Shown: positions 3,173 to 58,566 of the stretch, in pieces | How the letters are laid out: each line of letters opens with the position of its first letter | Numbering within the stretch: the stretch's first letter is position 1 | Assembly: GCA_020055645.1 (NCBI GenBank) | Contig: CM034546.1 | Coordinates: 61,504,001-61,568,000 of the forward strand | Source of the DNA: Tomocerus qinae | Taxonomy: Eukaryota; Arthropoda; Collembola; Entomobryomorpha; Tomoceridae | DNA length: 64,000 nt | Direction: 5' to 3' | Made by a program: the position numbers and the translations under genes | The notes under the pieces: generated by a model | Databases searched by the model: none | The model's input: only the letters and a program-made list of their open reading frames with translations | Told to the model about the DNA's origin: nothing

Positions 3173-5450
3173 ATGGTAAGTTATTTTGCTTAAAATTACC
3201 TAAATCCAATAAAGATACATTTTACATGGGCTATTTCATACGTTTTAATTTACTTCTTTGAGCAGAGCGAAGAGAAAAATGGCAAAGGGGATGACGTTGT
3301 GGATATCACCCCTGACGAAATATCCATCATCAATAAAGAAGTTGGCAGTCGGTCTTCCGAAGTGATACCAAAGGAAATATATCCGCCGACTCAAAGACCG
3401 AGTCAAGAAGATTCGACTTCAAACCATCTTGGGTTAAGTACGCAATTTTATTTCTATCAATTACGCTTGAGTTTCCAATTTTCCAATTTTAAATGTACAA
3501 TTATCTTAGAATTATTGTAAAAACTGACATGTGTTATTACACTATATTTTATTAGGATCACTTTATTTTGTGCTATTTTATGATATTATTTCTTATAAAA
3601 AGTTGGGTCAATATTGAATGCATGTCCACTTGATGCTATGTAAATGTTCATTTTAGATTGCGAAAATGTACGCAGAACGAGTCCGGATATTTCAGCACCT
3701 GTTTTCTGCCCCAATGATTCAAGTCCTATCCATCCACTACAACCTACTACATCTAAGGAAACTGGGAGGGACGTCCAGACACCGCCGGATTCCAGTAGCC
3801 ACTCCGTCACTCGAGATCTGGGAGACGAATCAACAATCAAAGAATCTTCTTCTCGCCAACAGATTTCCTCAATTAACACCAAAAAGACATCTGAAGATTC
3901 TGAAGAACGTCCTGAAATAAGATTTACTGAAGGACAATCCGTAAATAATTTGAATGCATCATCTCAGGCATCTGCGACAGTGAGTTTTTTACAATTAAAT
4001 TAACATTACTTTATTCATCAGATAATTCAGATAATCACACGATGGTATTTTCTGTTGTTTCATTTCTGCAGAACGAAGAAAATCCAATAGGCTGTCATGG
4101 AGTGCAATTCATTGCCAAGTCAGACGAGATAACCCGCACTGAAAATGGGCTTCGCAAGGTGCTACTGAACCGGAGATATCTTCATGCTCAAGAAAGATTT
4201 TTACGTCGGAGATTATGTAAGCAAATATATTTATAGTTTAAATTTTCCAATTTTAATCTATCAATACTCAACTAGTCATAACATAACTAAATGAAACTAA
4301 ATTTTTGACAGTATAATATATTTTTAATATAATTTTATTTCTTAAATAAAGCGTTTCTGTTCAAATTGATTACAAAATTTTGCTTAGTTAATTATTTCAA
4401 TCTGTCCAATTGAGGATAATGAAAATGTCTATTTTAGATTGTGACAGATTAAGAAGAATGAGACGTAACAAGGGTTCTTCTGTTTCCATTCAACGTCCAT
4501 TCGAATTTTCAATATCCGTCGATCACCCACATGTCTCATCTCAACAACAGACAGCCTCTAAGGAAACCACCAGATGTGCTCAGACAACTTCCAACGCCAA
4601 CTCCTTGGAGAAACGTCGACGAATTTCGACAAATAAATCCACGACTGATGATTCTTCATCTTTTGCCCAACCACCTGCCAAGATTGTCAGCAGCAGTCAA
4701 GAATCTACAAAATCTGAAACAAACGACGTTCCGCCTTCCGGATTGTTGAATGCAGACCAACCGCATCCATTTTCTTTGAGGGAGGAAGATGGAGCATGGA
4801 ATCTTGAAAACGCCCTTACAAACTTAACTTCACAAACGCTGGACAATCGTCAGACACATTTGGACGACTTGACAAACTTTATTGTTGAAGAGTTAGTACG
4901 ATCGGAGACACCTGAGACGGACACCGGAGTAGAAACAAATCCTGCAGTCCTTCAAAATACTTGTACTAGTTTAGAAAATTCTCAAGTGGGGCCTGCGGAT
5001 TCTTCCCTCACAGCCCAAACTGCTGAAGACGAGATTACGGAGGAAGAGGTCGATGCCGGACTACGCGAGGGTCCCGATGATGTCTACGTTGAAATGACCG
5101 AAGACCAACTGACATATTATGAAAATCTAAATATCCATATGGAGCAACTGGAACGTGAACGAAAGGAATACCTGGCAAATCTCACTGCCACTGCTGAAGA
5201 GAAGCATTCGGAGGGAAATCAATACAAGACATTGAATCAGTTGAACGCCCAAATAGAACCCGAAATCCTCGAAGTTCTTCCAAACATTCCAGTAAACGAA
5301 GAAAGAAACGAAGAATCTCATAGTTCCATTTTACTTGATGACAGCGACGACCTTGACATTCCACTTATTCCGTTGGACGAAATCAACGAAATCTTCAACG
5401 ATGGAGGACAGCTGCCAGATCTTGAGGATTGGTTTAATCAATTAGATTGA
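3173..5450 (+). CDS. Tandem-array family gene copy 1, 551 aa, intact spliced model
   Basis: Function not recognised. Model: a 5' untranslated exon ends at 2597 (CG|GTAAGT). Exon 2 (3081-3175) ends with the ATG immediately before a GTAAGT donor. Coding exons are 3266-3437, 3657-3979, 4072-4216 and 4438-5450. Phases agree at every junction and give 551 residues beginning MSEEKNGK. The start is chosen because the ACG-ATG|GTAAG arrangement is present in all four copies, while the upstream frames are not open in all of them. Exons 3-4 are Ser/Thr/Gln-rich and probably disordered. Exon 5 into exon 6 is basic (ERFLRRRL, then DRLRRMRRNKGSS) and could bind nucleic acid or serve for nuclear import. Next come a Ser/Thr-rich part and a charged, helix-prone segment near YYENLNIHMEQLERERKEYL. 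The acidic end contains LLDDSDDLDIPLIPLDE and finishes LPDLEDWFNQLD. Acidic-hydrophobic tails of this kind resemble activation domains, but that is inference. AATAAA lies at 5765. Confidence 0.7.
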
Positions 5451-15935: not shown

Positions 15936-16027
15936 AACTTGTCGGCTGCTTGGTTGTAGGTTATCGGCTGCTTGGTTGTAGTTTCTCGGCTGCTTGGTTG
16001 TAGGTTGTCGGCTGCTTAGTTAGAGGT
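15936..16027. repeat. 22-bp minisatellite at the left edge of unit 2
   Basis: There are about four tandem copies of a GGCTGCTTGGTTGTAGGTTGTC-like unit. The same minisatellite starts units 3 (33530-33650) and 4 (45180-45275). It therefore marks the left edge of the duplication and is a plausible recombination point. Confidence 0.8.
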
Positions 16028-16695
16028 TGTCAGGCATTGTGTCAATTTGTTAGCATAAGGTTGAGTATCAAAATTTGAATTACCTGCCAATATTAATAAT
16101 AATATTAATATTATCTGTATACTTACAATAATGAAGTAATATGGTTTTGAAGTTACATTCAGACCAATAAACCATTTTTATGTACAACAAAACGAATTGC
16201 AAATGGAACAATTTAGTCACCTGTAGATGAATTATGATATGAATTTTTAAAATTATATAGAATGGATTCTTACTTTAAAAGCAAAAGATTCAATCTTTCT
16301 TTTAAGTCAGGGCATCTTTGGTTATCTTTGGCTATAATACCATTATCTTGATGTAGCTGCTTTATTTGCTTCGAGGTTTCTTTTTCTGTTCATAGTTTGG
16401 GTCAATTATTTGCAAATTTATACACAATCCCCTCAATATATTTTTTTCTTCTAAACATATACTATCAACTTATTTTGAATGAAATTTGGTGATAATTAAA
16501 TTATTTTTACTCACAAATTTTCTTCCAACTCGTGTCTTCATAGCAACTTCACCATAAATAGAATTTCCACAGATTTGTGTAGTGACTTTCAGTAATTTTG
16601 CATAAATTAATATTATTTCCCTACTATCACGTCAGACGTCAAGCAAGAGCAAGTAATGAAATCCAATTGATCGTACAAGTCACAAACTCAAAGTG

Positions 16696-18743: not shown

Positions 18744-20832
18744 ATGGTAAGTTATTTCGTTTAAAATGACCTAAATCTAATAATGATAAATAACACACAT
18801 TTCACATGGGCTATTTCATACATTTTAATTTATTTCTTTGACCAGAGCGGAGAGAAAAATGAAAAAGATGATGACATTATGGACGTCACTTCTGACGAGC
18901 CAGCCATCATCGATAAAGGTGAAGAAGACAGTAGGTCTTCCGAAGTAATACCAGAAATACAACCGCCTACTCAAATACGAAGTCAAGAAGAGTCAAATTC
19001 AAACTGTCCTGAATTAGGTATGCAATTTGGTTTCTATCAACTGCATTTGAGTTCCCAATTTTACAATTTTAAATGCACAATTAACTTAGAATTATTTTAA
19101 AAACTGTTTTATGATATTATTTCTTATATTAATTAATTCTAAAATTAGGTCAATATTCAATTCATGTACACTTGATGCTAATTTAAATTTTCATTTTAGA
19201 TTTCCACAATGTAAGCAGAACGAGTCCGGATATTTCAGCCCCAGTTTTCTGCCAACGTCAAAATGACTCAAGCCCCATATGCCCGCCGCAAGTCTCATAT
19301 CAGGGACCGACTACATCTAAGGAAACTGGGAGGGACGTCCAGACACCCCGGGATTCCAGTAGCCACTCTGTCACTCAAGATATTCTGGGAGACGAATCAA
19401 CGATCAACGAATCTTCTCGCCAACAGATTCCTTCAATCAACCACAGTAGGACATCTGCAAATTCTGAAGAAGGTTCTGAAATAAGATTTACTGATGGACA
19501 ATCCGTAAATAATCCGAATGCATCATCTCAAATGTCTGCGACGGTGAGTTGTTACCATTAAATTAACCTAATTATTTGACACTACTTCACTCATTTGATC
19601 ATTCAGATAATCATGATGGTTTTTTAATTTGGTTTCATTTGTGCAGAACGAAGAAAATCCAATAGACTGTCATGTAGTGCAATTTACCGCCAAGTCAGAC
19701 GAGATAATCCGCACTGAGAATGGGTCTCGCAAGATGCTACTGAACCGGAGATATCTTCATGCTCAAGAAAGATTTTTACGTCGGATATTATGTAAGCAAA
19801 ACATACTTTCTCTTTAAATTTCCCAATTTTAATCAATCATTATTCAACTAGCCTTAGAAGTATTGAACGCAACTAAATTTTTGACAGTATAATATATTTT
19901 TAATGATTTTATTTCTTAAATAAAGCGTTTCTATTTAAATTGATTACAAAATTTTGCTTAGTTACTTGTTTCTATCTATCTAATTGAGAATACTAAAAAT
20001 GTGTATTCTAGATTGCGACAGATTAAGAAGGATGAGACGTAACAAGGGTTCTTCTGTTTCCATTCAACGTCCATTCGAATTTTCAATGTCCGTCGATCAC
20101 CCACATGTCTCATTTCAACAACTGACAGCATATAAGAAAACCACCAGATGTACTCAGACAACTTCCAATGCCAACTCCGTGGAGAAACGTCGACAAATTT
20201 CGAGAAACACATCGACGACTGATATCTCTTCATCTTTTGCCCAACCGCCTGCCACGATTATCAGCAGCAGTCAAGAATCTACAAAATCTGAAACAAACGC
20301 GGTTCCGCCATCCCCATCCGGATTGTTGAATGCCGACCAACCGAATCCAATTTCTACGGGTGAAGAAAATGAAGCATGGAATAATTTTGAAAACGCCCTT
20401 ACAAGCTTAACAATGTCACAAACTCTGGAAAATCGTGAGACACATTTGGACGATTTGACGAGTTTCATTGCCGAAGAATTGCCAGAGGAAGTAAGATTGC
20501 AGACACCTGAGGAGTCGGACACCGGAGTAGAAACAAATCCTGCAGTCCTTCAAACTACTTGTACAAGTTTAGAAAATTCTCAAGCGGGCCATGTGGATTC
20601 TTCCCTCACAGCCCAAACTGCTGAAAACGAGATTACCGAGGAAGAGGTTGATGCCGGACTACGCGAGGGTCCAAATGACGTCTACGTTGAAATGACCGAA
20701 GACCAAGAAGCATATTATGACAAGCTAATGAATATCCGAATAGTGCAAATGGAACTAGATCGAAAGAATTACCTTAAATACATCAAAGCCGTCTCAATGC
20801 TGAAGAAGACCAAGACGGGAAATCCGAGTTGA
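18744..20832 (+). CDS. Tandem-array family gene copy 2, 494 aa, lacks acidic tail
   Basis: Exon 1 ends at 18182. Exon 2 is 18661-18746 with the ATG as its last codon. Coding exons are 18846-19017, 19200-19543, 19647-19791 and 20012-20832. All phases agree and give 494 residues (MSGEKNEKDDD...). The order of segments is as in copy 1, but the last exon ends at ...MLKKTKTGNPS. A frame change removes the region that encodes the acidic tail in copies 1 and 4. Remnants of that region (CAAATAGAACCC, CCAGTAAACG) follow the stop, so the tail was lost by mutation. The terminal exon is almost identical to that of copy 3. Function unknown. Without the tail the product may act differently or not at all. 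Confidence 0.65.
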
Positions 20833-24700: not shown

Positions 24701-25110
24701 CTCTATTTTATACTCTCCACTGCTCCTGAATATCAGTAGTAGTTTATGTAGTTTATAGATATATACGTTTACAATTCAGAAGGTGCACGTCCCCATTACA
24801 TTTTATCCTCGCCCGAGATGTTTACAACAAAATCGGCACTTGCATGAGTTAAAACTACTCCGGTACATTTTTTAGCCATTGGCGAAGGACACTTGGTAAT
24901 TATTTGTGAATGACATCGTTGGCGTCTGAAGTAGTGACAGTACAGTTTTTATCTACCATATTAGTTTGAACATGGTCTCACCAAAATGCTTTTTAAAATA
25001 GCTTTCTGTGTGAAATAAAATATTAATATCATTCGATGTAGGTGTCTGAATGGGGAAGAATATTCAGCACCTCGTACAGTAAAATTCATTTACTTTGAAG
25101 TTACATCAAT

Positions 25111-25783
25111 TGTCCATTATCTCTCTTCACGGCTACAGTCACATGTGAAGCTCTGGATGAAATAAAAGCAAAAGTTGCTATCTGTGAAAAAGATTTGAAA
25201 ATCCTGTCCATGGTCCCAGACAGGAATAACATTTTTATTGACTTAAGGCCCAGAGCCAATAACTTAAAATGCTTGAAGTTCATCTCCGATAAAATACGAG
25301 AACATGGAAAAAATACAGAAAAAACGATTGTTTTTATGAAGACATCCATTCAATGCACAGAGGCATTTCTCTTCTTTTCAGAAGAGCTAGGAGAAAAAAT
25401 GTACCGATGCCATGACGGAGTGAAAAGGAGCATGATATATTATTTTGGCGCTTCTACAGAAGAAGAAGCAAAATTAGATATATTAAAAAACTTTTAATCG
25501 GTGGATGCCCCAAATAGAGTTGTCATCGCAACAGTAGTGTCTTTTCCACTGGGTCTTGATTTTAGAGCTATGGATAATGTTTTTATATTTGGCCTCAGCG
25601 CGTCCTATTCCCAGTTATGGCAATCAATTGGAAGAGCTGGGAGAGAAAATCAACAGGCCATGGCTATATTGTATCCTACTACACTGTTTGTGCCTCCTGG
25701 TGACTGAGATACCCGATGACGTTTGTATTCGGGAATTTATTCTGAGTGAATTTTATGGGTACATTTATAACACAAACGCAGGA
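25111..25783 (+). pseudogene. RecQ-type DNA helicase fragment, decayed
   Basis: The conceptual reading begins with TATVT and ALDEI, as at the end of the first RecQ helicase lobe. It runs through the second lobe (TIVFMKTS; GASTEEEAKLDILKNF; DAPNRVVIATVV; GLDFRAMDNVFIFGL) to the arginine-finger motif QSIGRAGRENQQAMA. A zinc-domain-like CIREFILSEFYG follows. It is broken by an in-frame TAA at 25495-25497 and by a frame change just after 25700. The DEAH lobe and Walker A region are not present upstream. The Copia element then interrupts it: CAGGA at 25779-25783 is repeated at 32283-32287, after which the frame soon stops. This is a dead fragment, possibly of a transposon-carried or dispersed helicase gene. 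Confidence 0.75.
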
Positions 25784-26224
25784 TGTTATGTAAACGGATT
25801 CAGTTAGTGAGACAAGTTTTGTATTTAGTTGTTACTGTAAAGTAACTTTTATTGAACAGAGAGAGAATGAAGTTTCCAGCTCAAACAGTTGAATAATACT
25901 CAGTACTTTTACATTATTGTCCATGGTATTTAAATACTATGCTTACATAGACAGATGTGAGAGACCCTTAATGGTTACAATAGGTATCTCTATAAAGCAA
26001 GGGACATGGGACGATGTAACAGTTGTACCCATATGCTTTCATGCTTCATTTAGACTTAATTGAGCTACAAAATCATAAAAACTAATAGTTACTACATTAA
26101 GAAGGGCCAAACGTTAAGTACTTGGACCCTTAAAATCTAATGTTCAGCTTAAATGTACAAACCAATTGTGTGAACATTTGCTACTTTACTTTCTCATGCA
26201 TTTATTTAGGTTAGTATTCTAACA
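25784..26224 (-). repeat. 3' LTR of the Copia element
   Basis: 441 bp, starting TGTTATG and ending TCTAACA on the + strand. It matches 31842-32282 base for base by eye. The 5-bp CAGGA duplication lies immediately outside at 25779-25783. Confidence 0.95.
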
Positions 26225-26240
26225 CTATCCCTTAATCTAA
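26225..26240 (-). other. Polypurine tract
   Basis: Read on the minus strand, ATTAAGGGATAG directly precedes the 3' LTR start TGTTAG. This is the expected place for the plus-strand primer. It is a short, interrupted purine run. Confidence 0.55.
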
Positions 26241-26251
26241 ATACATTTTCT

Positions 26252-27803
26252 TTAGGCATCATCTATTTCGATGGTTTTAGGGGCTGTAAATTTTACAGCA
26301 GGCTCGACAGTTTTCTTCCGTTTCCAAATGATAATCATAACAACAACCAGAATTATTATAATAAGAGACAAAAAAATGATTCCACCAATCAACAAATTTA
26401 AAAACATAAATGTAGTATTATATGAATCATGATTTTTCTTAGTTGAATCCAACATTTTTATATCTTCCTTAATTTCGTCCATGTGTATCTTTGGCTGTAA
26501 TAGCCAATTAGCTTTCATCGTGAATAAAGGGTTGACCTCCTGGATATGGCTAATTTGAAATTCGCCGGCCTTGTAGAAATGGTCATTGATTGTGAAAGCT
26601 GCTGTAATTGGCAGTGTAAAGACATCAAGTGGGCAGGCCTGTTCTCTTTTTCCAATTGTAATATTATTGCCGTGGCAATAAATATAATTCTGAAAGTTGA
26701 AGTTTTTACTTGAACGAAATCCATCGCGTCCTTTGTATGTCTCGGATGACATTTTCCCAACGAATAATACCTCGAGACGTTTGGGTAGGTCATGCTATGG
26801 TCACAATCCTGTGAAGGAGACAAAATCAAATCAGAGTATTTAACATTAACTGCATACACACAACTGTGTAATTCACTCATGATCACGTTTCGGGGTCCAG
26901 AAAACGAGATAACGCAAGTCTGGTTCTCAGTTTGGTGTATCAGGTCAAAAGGGTCAGCCTCCAGAAGGTGCAGAGTATCATTTATAAGTGGAGTAACAAA
27001 ATCAAAGTACAGTTTAGATTTGTCATAAGATATTCGACATTTCTTTGCTCTGCCAAGCCGAATTGGACAAGACTCTTTACATGGCAAGGAGAAGCCAAGA
27101 TAGTCAAACAATGGAGCATATAACTTTCGTTCTTCCCAATTTCGCTTCGCTTCTTTAAGTATTTGTTTGGCAGTCAGCATTCTTGATGTTATGTATGAAA
27201 TTGCGTAAATAGATGCGCTCAGCTTTGCTTTCATTTGTGTATAGTCATCTTCATGTGCCTTAGTTTCTATCCGCAAAAGTTTTACATTATGTTGTAGAAC
27301 TTTAATTGCTTCTTTCGCCAATTCCATATTTTTCGAAAGACTCTCTAGTTCACTTTCCATCTCACTCATCTTCGTTTCAACAGTTGCTATTTTTCCTGCT
27401 GCGACACTGGCTGTCACCTGTGCTGAGATTCCAAGTCCAACTGGAACAACTATGGACATGATTAGTATTCCCATTAATATTCCAAAAACAAATCTCTTAG
27501 AGCGTGAATGGACTTCTGTGAAGCTGCCTTTAGGGCACATAATTTCCAGTTCCTTCATAAAATATTCATCATACAGTTCGTTGCATTTGTTTTCGTATCG
27601 ATGAGAAGATCCTCATGAATTGTCTCATTCGTCAAAATGTCGCAAGGGCTTTTCAAATGAATCATTAAATAGTACTCATTGTAACCTACAGTTATAGGTA
27701 TGTTACTTGGCCTCCAGAGTACTGGTTGGTTTACGGTTGGGTTTGCAGTAATTGGAGATAGAAGTCCCAGCAATAGTAGCATAGTAATGAATAACTTGCT
27801 CAT
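26252..27803 (-). CDS. env: Envelope-like class I fusion glycoprotein, frame-broken
   Basis: Starts at the ATG at 27803, in the same frame as the upstream RNaseH and without an intervening stop. Features in order: a signal peptide (MSKLFITMLLLLGLLSPITA); a short N-terminal part with Cys and N-glycosylation sites; a furin-type RSKR; at once a hydrophobic Gly/Ala-rich stretch of fusion-peptide type; a long heptad-rich helix; a Cys-rich middle; a C-terminal membrane span of about 28 residues (around 26325-26410) followed by WKRKK and a 20-residue tail. The frame changes at 27555-27558, where a TGA overlaps an ATG, and again near 26755, so this copy cannot be read through as one protein. The layout is that of a class I viral fusion protein. 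The pattern just after the cleavage site is reminiscent of paramyxovirus-type fusion proteins; that is impression only. No phlebovirus-type or baculovirus F hallmark was seen. Confidence 0.8.
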
Positions 27804-28955
27804 TAGTCCACTTATGGTTCCAGTTCCAACACCGATCTTTGAATGGGGATTGATATTCCCGTTTCCTGCACTGAGTCCAAGTTTCTGTGTATCATGCTGA
27901 TGTTTGCCTTTTAGCAGTGGTTTTGTGAGTACATCTGCCTTTTGTTCTTCTTTGGGTACATGGTGTACCTCTATTACATTATTAGTTATTAGTTCTCTGA
28001 CATAGTGGTAACGTACATCTATATGCTTAGTACGTTTATGAAACTCTGGGTTTTTAGCTAGCCGTATAGCGCTTGTATTGTCAACGAACAGCTTGGCTGG
28101 GCCGTCTTGTGGTATCTGCAGCTCCAAAAGATAGGTTTGCAGCCAAACACATTCCCTGGCTGCTGAGGAAAGAGCAACATACTCTGCCTCTGTACTGGAA
28201 CAAGTCACTATAGGTTGCTTATTACTGTTCCAAGTGATCAAACTATCTCCAAGGAAAAAGGCATAACCAGTGGTTGATTTCCTGTCAAGTTTGTTGCCTG
28301 CAAAGTCTGAATCCGAGTAGCCATTCAAACTCAACTCTCCTCCCTTCTTGTAATACAAACCCAAGTTTATTGTTCCTTTTAGGTACATAAGTACCTTTTT
28401 CGCTGCTTCGAGATGATTCTCATCGTATGCACTCATAAATTGGGACAGCTTTGACACTGCATAGGCAATGTCAGGACGGGATAATCTTGTGAGAAACAAT
28501 AAAGCTCCAATGAGCTGTGGATAAGGCAGTCCTTTCTCACACTGCTCAGCAGGAAGCCAATCCTGGTTCGGTTGCATTGGTACAGACTGTACACTGCAAT
28601 CAGTCATCTCAAATCTGTCAAGCAAGGTTTGTACATACGATGCCTGTCCCATATAAATTCCGTCTTCGCTTCGTTTAATTTCGAATCCCACGAAAGAGCT
28701 TAGTTCTCCTTTTGATATTTCAAATGTAGACTCAATTCTCTGTGTAACCATTTTTAGTGCTTCGTTATTTGGGGACACCATTAAAATATCGTCCACATAT
28801 ACCAGTAGGTATACAATGTATGTGTTAACAAATCCAATAAAGACACAAGGGTCGCTTGTTAATACATTAAAATTATTTTCTTTTAAAAATTCAGTTAATC
28901 TCTCGTTCCAGCATCTCGGTGCTTGCTTAAGCCCATAAAGACTCTTGTCCAACAA
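27804..28955 (-). CDS. pol: Copia pol, 3' part: reverse transcriptase and RNaseH
   Basis: From the reverse-transcriptase box SLYGLKQAPRCW through the catalytic YVDD (residues 53-56 of this open stretch) to the RNaseH domain. RNaseH is marked by GYSDSDFAG, the STEAEY box, FVDNTSA and RTKHIDVRYH. Pol homology ends near KPLLKGKHQHDTQKLGL, but the frame runs on for about 24 codons directly into the env start codon at 27803. It is separated from the 5' pol part by a single frame change near 28966: the alternative frame reads FIENPNLVCLLDKS across the gap. Confidence 0.93.
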
Positions 28956-28965
28956 GCAAACTAAG

Positions 28966-30927
28966 TTAGGATTTTCTATAAACTCCGTCAGGCTGCTTCA
29001 TATAAATAACTTCTTTAACTTTCCCATGCAGAAAGGCTGTTTTGATGTCCAGTTGTACAATAAAGTAGCCGTATGTAGCTGCTATGCATATCAGAATCCT
29101 TATGCTTTCGTATCGGCCAACAGAGGAGAATGTGGCATAATAATCAATTCCATGTACTTGCTTGTAACCTTTTATAACCAAACGGGACTTAAATCTTGAA
29201 ATTGAGCCATCTGGGTTTGTTTTTACTCTGTATACCCAACGGTTGTCAAGTACTTGCTTGTCTGTTGGGTAAGGGACCAAAGTCCAAGTTTTATTTAATT
29301 TATGGCTATGTAATTCATCCACCATGGATTCCATCCATTCCTTGGCATTGGGTGACATAATTGCTTCATCAAACGTTGCTGGCTCTATTATTTTTGTATG
29401 AAATCCAACTTGAAGTCTGTCTATTGGCTTTAGTTTGGACCTATCCCTTAAAGTAGGCCCTGGCTTTATGTAGGATTCTATCTCCTCTTCGTCTCCCACA
29501 GGTTCACTTAACTCTTTTCTACTCTGCTCAAAGCTGTTCGCTTCCTCAAGAGAAATTTCACCTTGTACTACTTCTTTGAAAGTTACATTACGAGCAATTG
29601 TTACTGTTTTATTAAGAGCATTGTATATTCTGTAGCTTTCTCCATCATATCCAACCATATAACTCTGTTCAGCAGTATCATTCCACACTTTTCGTTTGTT
29701 TTGTGGTATGTGTGCAAAGGCTAGGCATCCAAAAATACGCAAATGTCCCATTTCTGGTTTTCTTTTTAAAATAGCCTCAAATGCTGTTATTTCTGGACTC
29801 TGTGTATCCAGAATTCGGTTCTTTATGTAAACTGCTGTGGCCATTGCTTCAGCCCACAAATATTCTGGCAGTTTTGACTGCAGTAGCATACAGCGAGCCG
29901 ATTCTTTCAAAGTTCTCATTTCCCGTTCTATCTTCCCATTCGATTCAGGGCTGTATGGGGCCGTGGTCTCATGTACAATACCCATTTTCTGAAAGAATGT
30001 CTGAACTGTCTTATTAACCATTTCAGTTCCATTGTCACTTCTAAAAACTTTAAGTCTTGATCCTGTCTGGTTTTCCATAAAGTAAACATACTCTTCAATA
30101 CAGGCAGGGACTTGTGTCTTTTTCGTGATAAAGAATACCATACGAAATCCTGTCGAATCATCTTTCATTAGGAAGAAATAATCAGCTCCTCCAATAGAAG
30201 TAACAGGCATTTTCCCAGATAGGTCTGCGTGAACCATTTCCCCTGGCTTAGTATTTCTCTTAGTTTCCACTGTGTGGTAAGGCTTTCTAGCTTGTTTTCC
30301 CAATTGACAAGTGCTACATTCAATGGACTGTTCTCCAAAATTCTCATAAAATCCTTTCACTGCATTTTTCTTGGCCGTGTCATTAATGAACCTTATATTG
30401 ATGTGACCCATTCGCTCATGCCAGAGTCTTGCATTAGAGCTCAAGCATATTGCATTTGCTTTGTTCGGTACAATGGGTTTAAACTTCATAATATACATAT
30501 TATCTCTCATTACAGCTACTGGCCCTTCTAATCCATTTCTATCAATGTATTTTGCCACTCCCGCTGCTCTTATTATGGTATATCCCTTTTTATCCATAAT
30601 AACTTCTGAAAAGAGATTGGCTGCTCCCTCAATATGCAGTACCTCATTCATTGTGCATTCTATCCATTTATTGTTCATGAATGCCAATACTGAAACAGTT
30701 CCTATTCCTTGGGCTTCCACTGCGTTTCCGTCAGTAAGGTATACTGACACTCGGGTCTCAAACTCTTTGTATGAAATAAAGAAGGATTTTTTACCGCATA
30801 TATGTTGGCTTGCACCGGAATCTGAAATCCATACATCATTACCATGATTTGGATTGCTCATGAAGGCTGCAATTGTCTTTCTTTTATCCTCCTCACTTTC
30901 GTTGGGTGTGTATTGCGGGCTGGGCAT
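28966..30927 (-). CDS. pol: Copia pol, 5' part: protease, integrase, start of reverse transcriptase
   Basis: 653 codons. The aspartic protease active site DSGAS is at residues 36-40. The integrase zinc-binding HHCC is at H170, H175, C204 and C207. The integrase catalytic triad is D235 (HADLSG), D298 (RSDNGTE) and E334 (KIERE). The reverse-transcriptase N-terminal part (KEWMESMVDEL, LDNRWVYRVK, QLDIKTAFLHG) runs to the frame change at the end. The ATG at 30927 overlaps the last Cys codon of the gag zinc knuckle in another frame. The natural route into pol may therefore be a -1 frame change and not a new start. Confidence 0.93.
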   Translation of the reverse strand: MPSPQYTPNESEEDKRKTIAAFMSNPNHGNDVWISDSGASQHICGKKSFFISYKEFETRVSVYLTDGNAVEAQGIGTVSVLAFMNNKWIECTMNEVLHIEGAANLFSEVIMDKKGYTIIRAAGVAKYIDRNGLEGPVAVMRDNMYIMKFKPIVPNKANAICLSSNARLWHERMGHINIRFINDTAKKNAVKGFYENFGEQSIECSTCQLGKQARKPYHTVETKRNTKPGEMVHADLSGKMPVTSIGGADYFFLMKDDSTGFRMVFFITKKTQVPACIEEYVYFMENQTGSRLKVFRSDNGTEMVNKTVQTFFQKMGIVHETTAPYSPESNGKIEREMRTLKESARCMLLQSKLPEYLWAEAMATAVYIKNRILDTQSPEITAFEAILKRKPEMGHLRIFGCLAFAHIPQNKRKVWNDTAEQSYMVGYDGESYRIYNALNKTVTIARNVTFKEVVQGEISLEEANSFEQSRKELSEPVGDEEEIESYIKPGPTLRDRSKLKPIDRLQVGFHTKIIEPATFDEAIMSPNAKEWMESMVDELHSHKLNKTWTLVPYPTDKQVLDNRWVYRVKTNPDGSISRFKSRLVIKGYKQVHGIDYYATFSSVGRYESIRILICIAATYGYFIVQLDIKTAFLHGKVKEVIYMKQPDGVYRKS

Positions 30928-31680
30928 TCCTTATCCTTATACCAATGACCAGTCTGTTTGCACCGACTGCATTTGGTCTTTTTCTTTAATTCTTCAATCT
31001 TTCTTTTTCTTGAATTCCTTTTGTCGAGTTTCCTTTTCCTCCTTTTGCCTGAAACGCCTTTACTTGGCTCTGCTCCTCCTCAGTGTTGCTTACTTGTTTC
31101 AGCTCAAGATCCTCTTTCTCAACCTGGCTAACAGTGCGGGCATTGTTTGGGATGCTGCAGGAACACTGTCCCATGCCTTTTTGAAAGCATTATGCTTTTC
31201 ATCAGGAAGTGAAGACACTATCTTCATAATTGTGGTATCATCGTCAATAACCACACCCATTTGGTTTAGAGAGATTGACAACCTCTCTATCTCAGTGTAT
31301 GTAGTGACAAGAGTTGTTCCCTCTTTGAACTTATAGTTGAAGAATGAAGCTAACACAAACTGTTTGTTCAACTGACTTGTGTCACTATGAATTGACTTTA
31401 GACGGTCATACACTTGTTTTGATGTAATACAACTGTGGATATGAGTAGCGTTCACTAATGTAAGAGTGGGTACAATGATGGCTTGGGCCTTTATATCAGA
31501 ATCGTCCCATTTATCTTTATCAGCTGCGGCTGCACGAGTGGATGTGCCACTGACAACGTCCCACACTTTTGCAGCTTTAAGAACTAGGGTGATTTGTAAG
31601 TTCCAGAGATCCCAATTATCATTTGCAAGTTTTACAACGTGATTTGTATCAATACGTTGCGAAATACTGACGGTGGCCAT
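30862..31680 (-). CDS. gag: Copia gag, read in three frames
   Basis: Begins MATVSISQRIDTNHVV with the Copia Gag core (DNWDLWNLQITLVLKAAKVWDVV), 193 codons to 31099. The reading continues after a frame change as VEKEDLELKQVSNTEEEQ (to 30986). A second change then leads into the zinc knuckle CSRCKQTGHWYKDKEC (30971-30924), and the frame closes near 30862. The knuckle spacing is C-X2-C-X4-H-X6-C, two residues longer than the usual CCHC. Gag forms the intracellular particle and binds element RNA. Two frame changes inside gag make this copy defective unless they are sequencing indels. Confidence 0.85.
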
Positions 31681-31821
31681 TTTACTTGTCAGAGTTCAAC
31701 AACTTGCTCACTCACAAATACTTCACTCTTTTCCACACAAAAAACTGACTAAGTATTTACTGATTGGACAAATTCACTAAGTTCAAAAACTTGAATTCTT
31801 TTAACTCACAGATCGAATCCT

Positions 31822-31841
31822 GAATCCCACTTCTGACACCA
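31822..31841 (-). other. Primer-binding site for a tRNA
   Basis: Directly inside the 5' LTR the + strand reads AATCCCACTTCTGACACCA, ending in CCA at the LTR boundary. This is identical to a tRNA 3' end including CCA. From memory it fits a leucine tRNA. The minus strand, read as element sense, is the complement that pairs with the primer. Nineteen bases at this exact location make the assignment firm in kind, less so in isoacceptor. Confidence 0.85.
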
Positions 31842-32282
31842 TGTTATGTAAACGGATTCAGTTAGTGAGACAAGTTTTGTATTTAGTTGTTACTGTAAAG
31901 TAACTTTTATTGAACAGAGAGAGAATGAAGTTTCCAGCTCAAACAGTTGAATAATACTCAGTACTTTTACATTATTGTCCATGGTATTTAAATACTATGC
32001 TTACATAGACAGATGTGAGAGACCCTTAATGGTTACAATAGGTATCTCTATAAAGCAAGGGACATGGGACGATGTAACAGTTGTACCCATATGCTTTCAT
32101 GCTTCATTTAGACTTAATTGAGCTACAAAATCATAAAAACTAATAGTTACTACATTAAGAAGGGCCAAACGTTAAGTACTTGGACCCTTAAAATCTAATG
32201 TTCAGCTTAAATGTACAAACCAATTGTGTGAACATTTGCTACTTTACTTTCTCATGCATTTATTTAGGTTAGTATTCTAACA
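31842..32282 (-). repeat. 5' LTR of the Copia element
   Basis: 441 bp, identical to 25784-26224. Followed on the + strand by the CAGGA target duplication (32283-32287). As the 5' LTR of a minus-strand element it should carry the element promoter. No clear TATA box was singled out. Confidence 0.95.
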
Positions 32283-32287
32283 CAGGA

Positions 32288-32740
32288 ACCTAAAATTAAT
32301 TGCTGTTCTTTCTGTTCTAGAAATGGTATTATGAAGAAATGATACTTTTCATTTCCCTGGTATTATTATTATTAATAATAATAATAATTCAACTATTGCA
32401 TTAGAGTCAAGTCTCTGTTTGCATAGGTACACACAACGCAAGGCACCCTCACTATACGTGTGTTTATATAATCTGCATTTTTAACTACACTATGTCATTT
32501 TTTGTCTTAATAAATCTAATTTAATGATGTTAAAAACAATTAACAATGGAAAATTAACGCATCATTTTCATAAAAGAATACAATTTCGTGTTGTTTATGG
32601 TTGCAATAAAAGTAAACTTTTTTAAGCGCCAGTTTATCCTGCTCTTCCGCAAATACAACACCAGTGTCATCTTAAAATACAATTAACATAGATCAAAAAG
32701 TTTTATTAGCGTAACAAGAAAATAATTTTTAATTAGGAAC
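32288..32740. other. Intergenic sequence, continuation of the helicase fragment site
   Basis: After the target duplication the helicase reading frame meets a stop within a few bases (ACC TAA). The rest is AT-rich with no recognised gene. Confidence 0.4.
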
Positions 32741-32745
32741 AAGAA

Positions 32746-33240
32746 ATGGAAATAAAGAGTGAAGTTTGTGGAAATTGCTTGATATCTGCAGCTTCAAGTA
32801 GAAAAAAACTGTCAGAAAAATTGTTGTTGAACACTGACAGAAAAGTTACTATTATCAATGTACTACACAAAGTTTTCCCGAAAAACCAGTAGCCATTACA
32901 AAATTGGAAAACTCTATAATGACGTTATGCCGAAGTTGTATCAATCATTTGTCTACAGCGTACAAAAACGTTGTGAAATATGAAAATTCCTTAAACACGT
33001 CTGGACAATTGTATCGTTCAATTTTTATAACAGGTGTGAGTACGTTTTCATCCAAAACCCAATATTGGATGACGCATATTTAATTTTGACAAAAGTTTTA
33101 TATGGTGTAATAAATTGATAGAATCAGAAGGCAGCCCCAATCAAGACAAATCTACCAGCTTGGATCTATTGGATTCTGACAATATCACTACACCAAACCT
33201 TGTCATAAGTAATATACTAAACGAAACACAAGTCCACTAA
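32746..33240 (+). pseudogene. ZAD-like zinc-finger gene fragment
   Basis: The frame starts MEIKSEVCGNCLISAAS. A second frame ends MTLCRSCINHLSTAYKNVV. Together they give the C-X2-C ... C-X2-C and the trailing L-x-x-AY pattern of an arthropod ZAD zinc-binding domain. They are separated by a stop (TAG at 32890) and a frame change. A GT donor after 33033 and an AG acceptor before 33122 splice in phase into ESEGSPNQDKSTSLDLLD and then a stop at 33238-33240. No C2H2 fingers follow. It is probably a dead 5' fragment. ZAD proteins are normally nuclear DNA-binding proteins. Confidence 0.5.
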
Positions 33241-33529
33241 GAAAAAAATGTAAGTCGCAGACTTTGAAAATGGATACAGTTTCTTCGAAGAATTCTCCAA
33301 TGGGTAGAGAGACTAGCCTTGAAGCTAACATCCCTATCAATCCCAGTATTCTAACCATTAAACTACATGTGCGTATAGAAAATACGGGAAGAATTAGGTA
33401 CAGAATGTGAATAGTGAATACAAGAACTCACAGAACACATAAACACAATATTAAACTACATACCATAGTGACGAAATAATGCCACACTACCGTAGCAGTA
33501 ATCTACATTTAAGTAACCACTAGTTTTGG

Positions 33530-33650
33530 GCTGATTGGTAGAAGGTTGTGGTCTGCTTGGTTGAAGGTTGTCGGCTGCTTGGTTGAAGGTTGTCGGCTGC
33601 TTGGTTAGAGGTTGTCCGCTGCTTGGTTGAAGGTTGTCGGCTGCTTTTGG
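33530..33650. repeat. 22-bp minisatellite at the left edge of unit 3
   Basis: About five copies of a GGTTGTCGGCTGCTTGGTTGAA unit, the same minisatellite as at 15936 and 45180. Confidence 0.85.
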
Positions 33651-37549: not shown

Positions 37550-39579
37550 ATGGTAAGTTATTTCGATTAAAATGTCTAAATCCAATATATAAAGATATTT
37601 TACAGGGGCCATTTCATACGTTTTAATTTACTTCTTTGAGCAGAGCCGAGAGAAAAATGACAAAGAGGATAACATTATGGACGTCACTCCAGACGAAATA
37701 TCCATCATCGATAAAGATAAAAAAGATGGCAGTTGGTCTTCCGAAGTAATACCAAAAGGAATACCTACTCAAATACGCAGTCAAGAAGATTCAAATTCAA
37801 ACTGTCCTAGATTTAGTACGTAGAATTATTGTAAAAATTGACAAGTGTTATTACACCGCGTTATTATGATTATGATCACATTATTTGTGCTATTTTATGA
37901 TATTGTTTAAAAATTAGGTCAATATTCAATGCTTGTCCACTTGATGCTAATGTTAATGTTCATGAATTTTAGATAGCCGCAATGTCAGCAGAATGAGTCC
38001 GGTTTTCTGCCCCAATGACTCAAGTCCCATCAATCCACCGCGAACTTCATACCAAAAACCTTCTACATCTAAGGAAACTCGGAGAGACGTCCAGACACCC
38101 CAGGATTCCAGTTGACACTCTGTCACTAAAGATATTGTGGGAGACGAATCAACGAATCTTTTCGCCAACAGATTCCTTCAATCAATACCAGTAAGACATC
38201 TGCAAATTGTGAAGAACGTTCTGAAATAAGATTTACTGATGGACAATCCGTAAATAATCCGAATGCATCATCTCAAATGTCTGCGACGGTGAGTTGTTAA
38301 TATTAAATTAACCTAAATATTTAAAATTACTTCAATCATTTGATCAGTCAGATGACCACAGGATGGCTTTTAATTTTGTTTTATTTGTGTAGAACGAAGA
38401 AAATACAGTAGACTGTCATGGAGCGCAATTTACCGCCAAGTCAGACGAGATAACCCGCAATGAGAACGGGTCTCGCAAGATGCTACTGAACCGGAGATAT
38501 CTTCATGCTCAAGAAAGATTGTTACGTCCGATATTATGTAAGCAAAATATACTTTCTATTTAAATTTCCCAATTTTAATTGATCATTATTCAACTAGTCT
38601 TAGAAGTATTGAATTCAACTAAATTTTTGGCAAAATAATTTATTTTTAATATGATTTTATTTCTTAAATAAAGCATTACTATTTAAATTGATTACAGTTT
38701 TTTCTTAGTTAATTATTTCTAACTATCTAATTGAGGATAATGAAAATGTGTATTTTAGATTGCGACAGATTAAGAAGGATGAGACGTAACAAGGGTTCTT
38801 CTGCTTCTATTCAACGTCCATTCGAATTTTCAATTTCCGTCGAAAACCCACATGTCTCATTTCAACAATTGACAACATATAAGAAAATCACCAAATGTGC
38901 TCAGACAACTTCCAATGCCAACACCTCCGTGGAAAATCGTCGACAAATTTCGACAAATACATCCACTACTGATGGCCCTTTATTTTCTTTTGCCCAACCG
39001 CCTGCCACGATTATCAGCAGCAATGAAGAATCCACAAAATCTGAAACACACGACGTTCCGCCATCTGGATTGTTTAATGCAGACCAACCACTTCCATTTT
39101 CTACGTGTGAGGATAATGAATCATGGAATAATCTTGAAAACGCCCTTACAAACTTAACAATGTCACAAACTCTGGAAAATCGTGAGACACATTTGGACGA
39201 CTTGACGAGTTTCATTGCCGAAGAATTGTCAGAGGAAGTACGATTGCAGACACCTGAGGAGTCGGACACCGGAGTAGAAACAAATCCTGCAGTCCTTCAA
39301 ACTACTTGTACAAGTTTAGAAAATTCTCAAGCGGGCCATGTGGATTCTTCCCTCACAGCCCAAACTGCTGAAAACGAGATTACCGAGGAAGAGGTTGATG
39401 CCGGACTACGCGAGGGTCCAAATGACGTCTACGTTGAAATGACCGAAGACCAAGAAGCATATTATGACAAGCTAATGAATATCCGAATAGCGCAAATGGA
39501 ACGTGATCGAAAGAATTACCTTAAATACATCAAAGCCGTCTCAATGCTGAAGAAGACCAAGACGGGAAATCCGAGTTGA
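37550..39579 (+). pseudogene. Tandem-array family gene copy 3, disrupted
   Basis: Exons equivalent to the other copies are at 37453-37552 (ATG last), 37644-37815, 37973-38288, 38393-38537 and 38759-39579. Exon 4 carries an in-frame TGA at 38113-38115, where the others have AGC. A small deletion makes its length (316) incompatible with the reading frame. Exon 1 and the promoter block are deleted upstream. The last exon is fully open, ends ...KKTKTGNPS and is nearly identical to copy 2 over its 3' half. A dead gene would not be expected to keep that similarity by selection, which suggests recent sequence exchange. An internal start giving only the last-exon product cannot be ruled out. Confidence 0.8.
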
Positions 39580-45179: not shown

Positions 45180-45275
45180 TAGATGTTTTGGGCCGCTTGG
45201 TTGGAAGTTGTCGGCTGTTTGGTTGAAGGTTGCCGGCTGCTTGGTAAGAGGTTGTCGGCTGCTTTTTTGAAAGTT
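45180..45275. repeat. 22-bp minisatellite at the left edge of unit 4
   Basis: Four degenerate copies of GGTTGTCGGCTGCTTGGTTGAA, as at the other unit edges. Confidence 0.75.
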
Positions 45276-48510: not shown

Positions 48511-50779
48511 ATGGTAAGTTATTTTGCTTAAAATAGCTAAAACAGCTAATCCAATAAAGATAACTTTCACATTTCACATGGGCTATTTCATACCTTTTAA
48601 TTTACTTTTTGAGCAGAGCGGAGAGAAAAATGAAAAACATGATGACTTTATGGACGTCACTCTAGACGAGCGAGCCACCATTGATAAAGACAAACAAGAT
48701 GGCAGTAGGTCTTCCGAAATGATACCAAAAGGAATACATCCGCCTACTCAAACACGTAGTCAAGAAGATTCAAATACAAACCGTCCTGGATTAGGTACCC
48801 AATTTGATTTCTATCATCTGCATTTTAATTCCCAATTTTACAATTTTAAATCATGTACATCATTACCTTAGAATTATTGTAAAAAAATGGCAAGAGTTAT
48901 TACACTGTATTTTATTATGATCACATTGTTTATGCTATTTTATGATATTATTTCTTATAAAAAGTTAGGTCGATATTCAATGTACGTCCACATGATGCAA
49001 TTAAAATAATTATTTCAGATTGCAACGATGTAAGCAGAACGAGTCCGAATATTTCAGCACCAGTTTTCTGCCACAATGACTTGAGTCCCATCCATCCACC
49101 GCAAGCTTCATACCAGCAACCTACTACATCTAAGGAAACGGGGAGGGACGTCCAGACACCTCGGGCTTCCAGTAGCCACTCTGTCACTCAAGATATTCTG
49201 GGAGACGAATCAACGATCGAAGATTCTTCTCGACAACAGATTTCTTCAATCAACACCAGTAAGACTTCTGCAAATTCTGAAGAATGTCCTGAAAAAAGAT
49301 TTACTGAAGTACAATCTTTAAATAATCCGAATGCATCAACTCAAATGTCTGCGACGGTGAGTTGTTACGATTTAATTAACCTAAATATTTGACACTACTT
49401 CATTCATTTGATCATTCAGATAATCACAGGATGGCTTTTAATTTTGCTTCATTTGTACAGAACGAAGAAAATACAATAAGCTGTCATGGAGTGCAATTCC
49501 CCACTAAGTCAAACGAGATAACCCGCACTGGGAATGGGTCTCGCAAGATGCTACTGAACCGGAGATATCTTCATGCTCAAGAAAGATTGTTACGTCGGAG
49601 ATTATGTAAGCAAACTACATTTTTAGCAATTTAATATATTTTAACATAATTTTATTTGTGAAATAAAGCGTTTCTATTTAAATTGATTACAAAATTTTGC
49701 TTAGTAAATTGTTTCTGTCGACCTAATTGAGGATAATAAAAATGTGGATTTTAGATTGCGACAGACTAAGAAGGATGAGACGTAACAAGGGTTCGTCTGT
49801 TTCCATTCAACGTCCATTCGAATTTTCAATTTCCGGCGATCACCCACACGTCTCATCTCAACAACAGACAGCCTCTAAGAAAACCTCCAGATGTGCTCAG
49901 ACAACTTCCAATGCCACCTCCGTGGAGAAACGTCCACAAATTTCGACAAATAAATCCACGACGGATGACTCCTCATCCATTGCCCAACCCCCTGCCATTG
50001 TCAGCAGCAATGAAGAATCTACAAAATCTGAAACAAACGACGGTCCACCATCCGGATGCTTGATTATGATTACAGACCAACCGCATCCATTTTCTACGAC
50101 GGAGGAAACTGGAACATGGAATAATCTAGAAGACACCCTTACAAGCTTAACAATTTCACTAACTCTGGACAATCGTGAGACACATTTGGACGACTTAATA
50201 AACTTCATTGCTGAAGAGTTCTCGGAGGAAGTACAATCGGAGACACCGGAGTCGGACATCAGACTAGATACAGACGTCGTTCAAAATACTTGTCCTAGTT
50301 TAGAAAATTCTCAAGTGGGGCATGTGGATTCCTCTTCTACAGCCCAAACTGCTGAAGACGAGATTGCACAAGAAGTGTTCGATGCCGGACTTCGCGAGGG
50401 TCCCGATGACGTCTACGTTGAAATGACCGAAGACCAACTGACATATTATGAAAATCTAAATATCCATATGGCGCAAATGGAACGTGAACGAAAGGAATAC
50501 CTGGAAAATTTAAATGACACTGCTGAAAAGAAGCATTCGGAGGGAAATCAATACAAGACATTGAACCAGTTGAACGCCCAAATAGAACCCGAAATCCTCG
50601 AAGTTGATCCAAACATTCCAGTAAATGAAGAAAGAAACGAAGAATCTCATAGTTCCATTTTACTTGATGACAGCGACGACCTTGACATTCCACTTATTCC
50701 GTTGGACGAAATCAACGAAATCTTCAACGATGGAGGACAGCTGCCAGACCTTGAGGATTGGTTTAATCACTTAGATTAA
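48511..50779 (+). CDS. Tandem-array family gene copy 4, 562 aa, intact spliced model
   Basis: Exon 1 ends at 47918. Exon 2 is 48416-48513 with the ATG as its last codon. Coding exons are 48617-48794, 49019-49356, 49461-49605 and 49755-50779. All phases agree, giving 562 residues (MSGEKNEKHDD...). It has the full layout of copy 1: disordered Ser/Thr/Gln-rich N-terminal half, basic RRYLHAQERLLRRRL and DRLRRMRRNKGSS, a charged helix-prone segment (YYENLNIHMAQMERERKEYL), and the acidic tail ending LPDLEDWFNHLD. The last third is almost the same as copy 1, including synonymous sites, whereas the upstream flank is closest to copy 3. Function is unknown; a nuclear regulatory role is inferred from composition only. 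Confidence 0.7.
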
Positions 50780-55922: not shown

Positions 55923-58566
55923 ATGTTTCTTAGATTAAATATTCCACTTTATAACCTTATTAGCCTCATGGTAGCAATGATTATTATTCCCGATGTTATT
56001 TTAAGTAGTCCAACAAAATTAGAACAAATAGTAAATGTTGATCATGATTGTTACATAAATATAATTGTTACAGTCAAGCCTCAACTACACAATATTTAGA
56101 AGAACTCAGAAACATCAAAGTTCCATTCGCAGTGACAAGATTTGATTTACTGGAACAAAAGTTTTCGGAGAGATATGAGGCATGTACAATGATTTTTGGT
56201 GTCTGCAATGTTGAAATAATGAAAAAGAAAGTATTTGCTCCTCCATATGTATTCTCTCGGTTTAACTGTCTGTCAAATATTTTCATCAATTGGGATGCCG
56301 AAGATGATTTGCAGATATTTTTCGCAGTGTACGTATCCAGAAATCTTGTGACGCCTTTTGCAATTCCTGGGGATAACTCTATACTTTATCCAGAGAATAG
56401 TGTATATAACTTGGAAGACTATTCCCGGGTACATATCTTATTAAACCTAAATGATTTTCAAGGGAAATTTTCTGTTGTATTGAAAATTGAAAATGTGATT
56501 GATAATAATATGTTTTTTTGGTATAAACTAACTTCTATAAGTTTTCATTCTATAAATGATTTGGAATTGAAGAGATTTTATTTACATTCAGTGGAAAGTG
56601 ACAATTGCTGTTATTTAATTCGGTACTTGTATAGAAGTTCGGAGTTTTATAGAGTGGAATTATATTCTTCCAATGCTAATTATATTGAAAGTTTTAAAAA
56701 CAAAATTGATTCCACACAGTCCTTCGCCGCAAGTGTAAAAGGGCAACTAAACATAAGAAACATGTACATGCCACAGATAGTTGTAACAACAGAAATTAGG
56801 TTTCCCGATGATACTTTCCGATATCATGAAACATTGTGTTCACTGTCTATGTCGAGGGTTAAATCAATGTCCAAACAATCAATTCAATTAATGTTAGGTT
56901 CGCTTTTGTTAAACAATATGCCTAATGCTACTTTGACAGGTAAAAGTAATTGTGATGACAAACCGTCAATAACTTTAACCCTCAATGACTATCAATCTGA
57001 CATTGAATTTCAAAAAAGTCGGTTAAATACTAAGCAATATTTTGCTGGCTTTGATTTATATGCAATTTTTTCATTTGATAAATCCCCGTTATATTTTCCA
57101 ACATCAGAAGAAGGTTATAATTTTATTTCGTGCAGCATTATAAATCAAGACAAAGAAAATTTCAGTGCATTGACACGTCCTTTTGATTTAGGAGCTTGGA
57201 TTTGTCTATTTATAACGACACTCGTGGTGATTTGTTTTGTATTAATTGTTCTCTATTTGAAAGGAGATTTGTATTCAATATTTCCGTTAATTGTTTATGC
57301 TTACTTGTTAGAAGTGAGTTATTCCCTTCCTAGAAAGTACGAAAAGTTGACTTGGCTAAAAATTGTGATTGGACCACTTTTGTTAATGTTCATCGTTATA
57401 ACCAACGGCTACAAGGGAATTGTTATCACAGATATAATTAGTGAGCCACCTGTACTGAAAATAGAATCTATATTTGATCTAATTGATAATAAGCATATTG
57501 TTTCTACCGGTCTTACAATTCGTCATTTTAAAAATGGTACAATACCTGAAGATTCAAAATGTATGTTTTATTCGTATTCAAATCCTTATAACAAATGTGG
57601 GAAACCGACTGCAGATGGAAGATTTTATGACTATGACGAGAATGTGATAAAAAAGTTAGCAAGAGTTTACAGTGATAAATACAATGTGAGCTACGATTTT
57701 TTACAGGTGATGCTGTTTGCTGGTGATTTGGAGTATAACTTATACCATGCAGTGACCTCAGGAGGTTTCAGCAATACATCCAGACAGTTGTCAAAATTGA
57801 CAAAACTAAACGACACTATTTTTCACAGACACGTAATACACCCTAACTTTCCCAACGTCACTGCACAGCAATTTATTTCTCAGTGCAACAATTCAATCTA
57901 CATTGACAAAGAGAAGAATCTACACTGGTTTGTCGACGATTCGTACTGGAATCCGCTGAAACAGTACCCCAACCACGTCGACAACTCTATTTTGGGGAAC
58001 CCGAGAATGCTGTACTTAGAATAAATAAGGGAATGCGCTTGGAGATTTATTCATTCCAGTTAGGAAAATCATATTTTAAAAGTAGGCTACTCCACATCGA
58101 CCAAAGTGGAATTTATCATAAATGGGAATCATATTTCCAAAGGGCCGAGAAAAAGAATTTTAGACAATGTCGATTTTGTCTTCATAATGACGATTTGCAT
58201 CCTTTGACCTTTGAGAATTCTAACATAATAGTCGTCTTTTATGTTTTTCTGGGAGGTGTAATTGTCTTCTGTTTTGAATTTTTACTGGAACACAAGTTAG
58301 CACTAAAAAGTGCATACTTAGTAATACGTAAAACTTTATCATATTTGTGCATCCAAACATTTAACCAGTTCAAAAGGATTAGAATGCTGCTGAATCGTCC
58401 CCTTTTTGTCCGACGTGCAAGACCACAGCCATGTAATAGAATCCAATATAAAGTGAATGGAACTAGAAGAATTCATCAAACTACGTCAACCAGTAATCGT
58501 AATTGTCACTGGAATTTTCGTAGACTATATGTTACCTTCAAAACTAAATTCTGTAACAATAATTGA
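55923..58566 (+). pseudogene. Ionotropic-receptor-like gene IR-A, intronless, two frame breaks
   Basis: Divergent ionotropic glutamate-receptor-like chemoreceptor. A signal peptide follows the ATG at 55923 (MFLRLNIPLYNLISL). The frame changes near 56060-56100 into a 658-codon stretch (56048-58024). By residue of that stretch, the first membrane span is about 383-404, the pore loop about 410-426 and the second span about 436-460 (with ITNGYKGIVITD after it), followed by a long ligand-binding S2 region. A second frame change near 58020 leads to 58033-58566, which supplies the third span (IIVVFYVFLGGVIVFCFEFLL) and the cytoplasmic tail. The three pieces in order make one receptor of about 880 residues with no introns. 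Two single-frame changes in an otherwise clean gene mean either a young pseudogene or assembly indels. Predicted to act as a ligand-gated channel subunit in sensory membranes if functional. Confidence 0.8.

Follow-up and report, generated by a model that had tools for sequence, protein, structure and literature searches.

Ty1/Copia long terminal repeat (LTR) retrotransposons (Pseudoviridae) are described in the available text of the International Committee on Taxonomy of Viruses profile as having no extracellular phase, with envelope (env)-like genes occurring in plant sireviruses (PMC8515867). Capture of a viral glycoprotein gene is known from other LTR backbones: going by the accessible parts of the respective papers, a class I F protein of paramyxovirus type is encoded by the TelKA elements of bdelloid rotifers (PMC5408684), errantiviruses are arthropod Gypsy elements whose class I F-type env is thought to be derived from baculoviruses (PMC12440569, PMC13172572), and the arthropod element Anakin carries the captured glycoprotein gene of a negative-strand RNA virus (PMC7642597). 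The accessible portion of a 2025 paper on LTR elements illustrates env capture with errantiviruses and Anakin and mentions no Copia element (PMC12440569), and no env-bearing animal Copia element was found in the literature that we searched, in which coverage of subscription papers and bioRxiv is incomplete. Here we describe a 6.5-kb Ty1/Copia element on the minus strand at positions 25784-32282 of a 64,000-nucleotide stretch of contig CM034546.1 of the springtail Tomocerus qinae (hereafter the window). In this single element with Copia gag and pol, an env-like gene continues the RNase H frame on its downstream side; homologous pol-env proteins occur elsewhere, and pol and env are inherited together. 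We consider it highly probable that the locus is a recent insertion of a non-intact member of an animal Ty1/Copia lineage in which a class I F-type fusion gene was acquired long ago, most likely from an arthropod negative-strand RNA virus or an F-bearing relative. Env capture is thus already known, and it is the Copia backbone and this lineage that appear, as far as we have seen, to be undescribed.

The element is delimited by one pair of 441-bp LTRs (5' LTR at 31842-32282 and 3' LTR at 25784-26224) that agree at 441 of 441 positions, match each other over their full length in BLAST and are both TG...CA-ended on the reading strand, and a CAGGA target duplication flanks it on both sides (25779-25783 and 32283-32287). 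A reading made earlier from the sequence alone (the sequence-only reading) had reported a single identical LTR pair with one target duplication, which is exactly what we find, and these ends together with the short duplication are those of a Ty1/Copia element. The identity of the LTRs indicates a recent insertion. When the LTR and three internal pieces were compared with the window by BLAST, nothing outside the element matched, and no further repeats of at least 30 bases were found in 25000-33500. The assignment to Ty1/Copia was confirmed by Pfam, which identified gag (31099-31680; Retrotran_gag_2, 6.8e-26), the integrase region (gag_pre-integrs, 8.2e-11; rve, 3.1e-11; SH3_retrovirus, 5.6e-20) and reverse transcriptase (RT; RVT_2 in two matches, 5.4e-32 and 7.1e-27), with integrase ahead of RT as is the Copia order. 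Both gag and RT are of Copia type, as are the relatives recovered by a search with pol. Protease, integrase and N-terminal RT occupy 28966-30927 (open reading frames and Pfam), where we take a DSGA motif beside Pol_BBD to mark the protease, and C-terminal RT and RNase H occupy 27804-28955 (open reading frames, Pfam, homology and the tree described below). RNase H was assigned through homology with the C-terminal regions of further Copia proteins and not through a Pfam RNase H match. The proposed order of protease, integrase, RT and RNase H stands on Pfam for integrase and RT, on the DSGA motif for protease and on homology for RNase H, in frames that are broken.

The env-like gene follows RNase H, extends up to the 3' LTR and is spread over three frames as pieces A, B and C, all on the minus strand. 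The RNase H frame is free of stops through a linker into the Met at 27803, at which a signal-peptide-like hydrophobic stretch begins, and onward through the first 82 env residues; this piece A (27558-27803), comprising the signal-peptide-like stretch and an N-terminal (F2-like) part, ends at a stop codon at 27555-27557. Piece B (26515-27558, homologous part approximately 26698-27558) contains an RSKR furin-like cleavage site (27493-27504), directly followed by a hydrophobic fusion-peptide-like stretch (approximately 27418-27492), a heptad-repeat helix region (HRA-like, approximately 27244-27390, corresponding to a long helix in the structural model discussed below) and most of a Cys-rich ectodomain. 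The heptad spacing score was reached by 6 of 5000 shuffles at one offset and by 73 and 255 at the other two. Piece C (26252-26752, homologous part approximately 26255-26704) holds the end of the ectodomain, the membrane anchor (26327-26383, the strongest 19-residue hydrophobic window, with a peak hydropathy of 3.58) and, by eye, a basic tail following the membrane segment. Every part that the sequence-only reading had listed for this gene, from signal peptide to basic tail, is present, in a gene that is split rather than continuous. The piece A stop shares bases with the first ATG of piece B, the two together reading ATGA (27555-27558, minus strand); we take this overlap as a by-product of the frame change, a stop-restart arrangement being possible.

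Proteins carrying the same env were found elsewhere. A search of about 5.8 billion proteins with piece B returned two, P0002 and the 519-residue P0001 (E 2.5e-82 at 48% identity). When 6934 candidates were searched with a profile, five were listed at E<=0.01, namely these two (both in the profile) together with P0123, P0124 and P0125. The 859-residue P0125, a natural metagenomic protein, runs unbroken from RT (RVT_2, 2.5e-8 in Pfam) through RNase H, linker and signal peptide to a complete env. The same order is seen in four proteins that are each partial: P0123 has a complete env preceded by the end of RNase H, of which 34 residues are present, while P0004 (from the springtail Allacma fusca, Collembola), P0005 and P0007, all from the pol search, have RNase H followed by an in-frame env start. 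The env part of P0004 (approximately 45 residues, from a gene model that is spliced in appearance) matches P0125 (E 1.7e-4) and P0123 (E 6.5e-4). A motif at the end of RNase H was found in 96 of 122 proteins; among their extensions beyond this motif, the longest were those of P0005, P0007, P0004 and P0097, the next longest being 55 residues; the 119-residue extension of P0097 has no env motif. By eye, seven of the eight proteins (the window copy, P0001, P0005, P0007, P0123, P0124 and P0125) have a Met immediately ahead of the hydrophobic stretch, hinting that translation starts there, and in P0004 a Met is located inside the stretch. No relatives were found in viral contigs, prokaryotic genome contigs or phages. 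Judged from these proteins, the env belongs to a lineage and not to one insert.

An RT phylogeny was built from RT-RNase H of 122 rows (the window copy, P0125 and the 120 best pol matches), with P0001, P0002, P0123 and P0124 omitted because they have little or no RT. The window RT fell with four env-bearing Copia proteins in a seven-row clade with a support of 99 (window, P0007, P0125, P0005, P0004, P0006 and P0026); an env is shown by five of the seven, and none of 500 shuffles was as clustered. Pol identity within the set, P0123 left out, was 44-60%, and env identities were lower and dropped as pol identity dropped (60% for pol and 50% for 48 residues of env between the window and P0007; 55% and, for piece B, 37% between the window and P0125; 50% and 28% between P0005 and P0125). 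This pattern fits one old env capture followed by joint descent with pol.

The env resembles the class I F-type fusion proteins, as the sequence-only reading had proposed, and this is supported both by the order of its motifs and by the structural matches of one relative. Complete relatives combine a signal peptide with a heptad helix, an ectodomain rich in Cys (nine invariant Cys columns and three more with one exception) and a single membrane anchor, and their cleavage site lies immediately before a hydrophobic fusion-peptide-like stretch; in P0125 this site is QKR and not a full RXXR. A heptad helix follows the fusion peptide in six proteins, for which the score at the best of three offsets was reached by 0 to 59 of 5000 shuffles; at its two remaining offsets P0123 has a weak score (842 and 1269 of 5000). 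Of the four complete proteins, all but P0124 have more N-glycosylation motifs than shuffles do (p<0.06). Foldseek with a predicted model of P0123 gave 95 PDB matches at E<=0.001, of which the 50 listed were all paramyxovirus or pneumovirus F proteins; the F-type fold matches span model residues 88-478, with approximately 7-13% identity in the structural alignments. At the place of a second heptad region the model has two short helices before the anchor, in a part with pLDDT under 50. Matches in BFVD include arthropod Lispiviridae proteins, with a granulovirus F protein at rank 13, and in a profile search of PDB the nine best rows were all F proteins, whose alignments fell on the cleavage site and the heptad helix. 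Sequence comparison no more than suggests a link to F proteins. A PDB search with P0001 alone gave only unrelated matches (E 0.6 or more), no Pfam family passed its cut-off against the env, and the baculovirus F family was not reported by Pfam in any row. A match of ABC2_membrane_3 in P0123 (2.7e-5, 23.9 bits against a cut-off of 31.6) lies on the membrane segment and was taken as chance, and Prefoldin, TarH, Orf78 and similar weak matches were taken as matches to the coiled coil or membrane segments.

A number of observations weigh against the interpretation of the locus as one member of an enveloped lineage with an F-type gene. P0006 and P0026, of the same RT clade, have no env within their lengths; they end 39 and 37 residues past the RNase H motif, and either env is truly lacking or the proteins are cut short. 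The pol-env proteins are in frame by construction of the search, and the window provides the only join in independently chosen DNA. The fold rests on one model, that of P0123, which is moderate (pLDDT 60.1, pTM 0.37), the TM-scores of its PDB matches are 0.17-0.28 to the query with a large root mean square deviation, and the model of P0001 (pLDDT 45.7) had no match at E<=0.001, the top one, to an F protein, reaching E 0.17. Among the BFVD matches are also chu-related, filovirus, herpesvirus, torovirus and foamy virus proteins. Pfam Fusion_gly was matched in one of seven rows at 16.1 bits, below its cut-off of 29.8, and no row of the PDB profile search passed E 0.001, the best F protein being at 0.01 and tropomyosin close at 0.037. 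Finally, the window copy has five frame changes (between gag and nucleocapsid, between nucleocapsid and protease, inside RT, and twice inside env), which the sequence-only reading had not mentioned. One of those in gag and pol could be natural. The copy may have been broken before it moved, with help from an intact one, it may have broken shortly afterward, or part of the changes may be sequence errors. As read, its sequence cannot encode the full protein set, and because it is broken in five places the copy is not itself a working retrovirus-like element.

The broken copy and an env in three frames would be in keeping with an env-like gene that entered a single Copia copy as a nested or chimeric insert, or with an assembly that joined two elements. 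The sequence-only reading had named such an insert, present in this copy alone, as the outcome that would overturn it, and we regard it as very improbable: the copy has one LTR pair, one target duplication and no extra repeats, the env-bearing RTs cluster with the window RT, and a nested insert or chimera is rejected because the same RNase H-env junction is present in P0004, P0005, P0007, P0123 and P0125, P0125 already being sufficient to contradict it. The broken state of the copy, as well as a 25-residue insertion in P0002 relative to the other env proteins, could also point to a non-functional relic carried as decaying baggage by a lineage that has no extracellular stage. Against this, the env of P0001, P0123, P0124 and P0125 is uninterrupted at 34-46% pairwise identity with its nine Cys columns invariant, which would be hard to keep without selection, and a relic therefore seems improbable.

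The extra gene could instead encode a membrane glycoprotein without a role in fusion (receptor-binding or immune-modulating), or be a captured cellular F-like gene, such as insects carry (one is named in the reference list of PMC9963324); the weak sequence support for F and the lack of a significant match for the P0001 model lean that way, but the cleavage site directly before a hydrophobic stretch, the heptad helix, the anchor and the F-type fold matches over model residues 88-478 make this unlikely. A donor that was itself a retroelement with an F-type env, such as an errantivirus or a TelKA-like Gypsy element, instead of a virus directly, is the most credible of the alternatives, and we judge it possible without favoring it. 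Bdelloid rotifer TelKA elements with their paramyxovirus-type F offer a precedent (PMC5408684, from the text available), and the granulovirus F protein at rank 13 in BFVD also speaks for such a donor; on the other side, no such retroelement env appeared in the protein searches, which reach close relatives only, and BFVD is a viral protein library whose best structural matches are uninformative on retroelements.

Compared with the known systems, the window element shares with sireviruses a Copia backbone in which pol is followed by a third coding region, whereas sireviruses are plant-restricted (both points from the accessible part of PMC8515867) and the window lineage includes Allacma fusca in its RT clade. 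By description, it is further set apart from sireviruses by an env in frame with RNase H that resembles viral F. TelKA shares the LTR retroelement context and F class, but belongs to a retrovirus-like LTR family with a Gypsy-like pol (protease, RT, RNase H, integrase), as the available text describes it (PMC5408684), while the window pol is Copia. Errantiviruses differ in their Gypsy pol, and the baculovirus F family that their env calls to mind was absent from the Pfam results here; Anakin differs in its BEL/Pao backbone and chuvirus glycoprotein (PMC7642597, in the portion available), the glycoproteins of chuviruses being of class III. The F glycoproteins of Paramyxoviridae, Pneumoviridae and Lispiviridae share the order of parts and the predicted fold with the window env, at the low identity given above, and differ in that the env here is carried by a retroelement. 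It is quite possible, in our view, that these proteins represent a long-standing metazoan lineage of enveloped Ty1/Copia elements, the third LTR superfamily after Gypsy and BEL/Pao to become retrovirus-like in animals, with an env from Lispiviridae-type arthropod mononegaviruses appended in frame to pol.

In intact relatives, translation of the glycoprotein would begin at the Met that precedes the signal peptide, by way of a spliced subgenomic RNA or another internal start, or alternatively the glycoprotein would be released from the polyprotein at that point. It would then enter the secretory pathway, be glycosylated, be cut at RXKR into F2- and F1-like halves and reach the surface as a trimer, where the exposed hydrophobic N terminus and refolding of the heptad helix could drive membrane fusion as in class I refolding. 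Most likely, Gag particles with packaged Copia RNA would acquire the env at a membrane and fuse with a neighboring cell, which would let them pass between cells or hosts. The window copy would have needed proteins supplied in trans, or the breaks arose in its parent copy or later. We infer the expression, cleavage, trimerisation, fusion and particle release of the env, and likewise the infectivity of env-bearing Copia, from the features described here. Taken together, these features suggest that a Copia lineage gained the part that a retrovirus needs to exit one cell and enter another. If this is true, a conserved F-type fusion gene in animal Copia would add a third LTR superfamily to those from which retrovirus-like agents arise, and it would show that all three LTR backbones have repeatedly taken up env genes of negative-strand RNA viruses. 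The lineage also lends itself to a clean test of movement of Copia particles from cell to cell. Because RNase H and env are joined in frame, a further question is how a signal-peptide glycoprotein is made from a gene for a cytoplasmic polyprotein.

Within the element, a CCHC zinc knuckle (30924-30971, minus strand), presumably the nucleocapsid, lies between gag and protease in a frame differing from both. A purine-rich stretch adjoining the 3' LTR (26225-26233, minus strand) is a candidate polypurine tract, and a candidate primer binding site, TGGTGTCAGAAGTGGGAT (31824-31841, minus strand), lies directly after the 5' LTR, with its TGG start at the LTR end. We take this start as the pattern of tRNA 3'-end priming and not of the half-tRNA priming of hemiviruses; in Ty1/Copia elements the primer binding site is usually complementary to initiator tRNA-Met.

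In the window, Rfam gave nothing at gathering scores and ARAGORN found no tRNA. A 658-residue open reading frame with hydrophobic segments (56048-58024, plus strand) had no Pfam match at 0.01 and by eye is like an arthropod chemosensory ionotropic receptor. Four related open reading frames on the plus strand (4410-5450, 19984-20832, 38731-39579 and 49727-50779), two of which (4410-5450 and 19984-20832) had no match in Pfam, start with MRI.KM.ILDCDRLRRMRRNKGSS and are spaced 11-19 kb apart, forming a repeated gene or segment. Tandem arrays of a similar 22-bp unit (GGCTGCTTGGTTG...) at 15939-16031, 33529-33646 and 45191-45275, thus every approximately 12-18 kb, are perhaps part of the same repeated segment.

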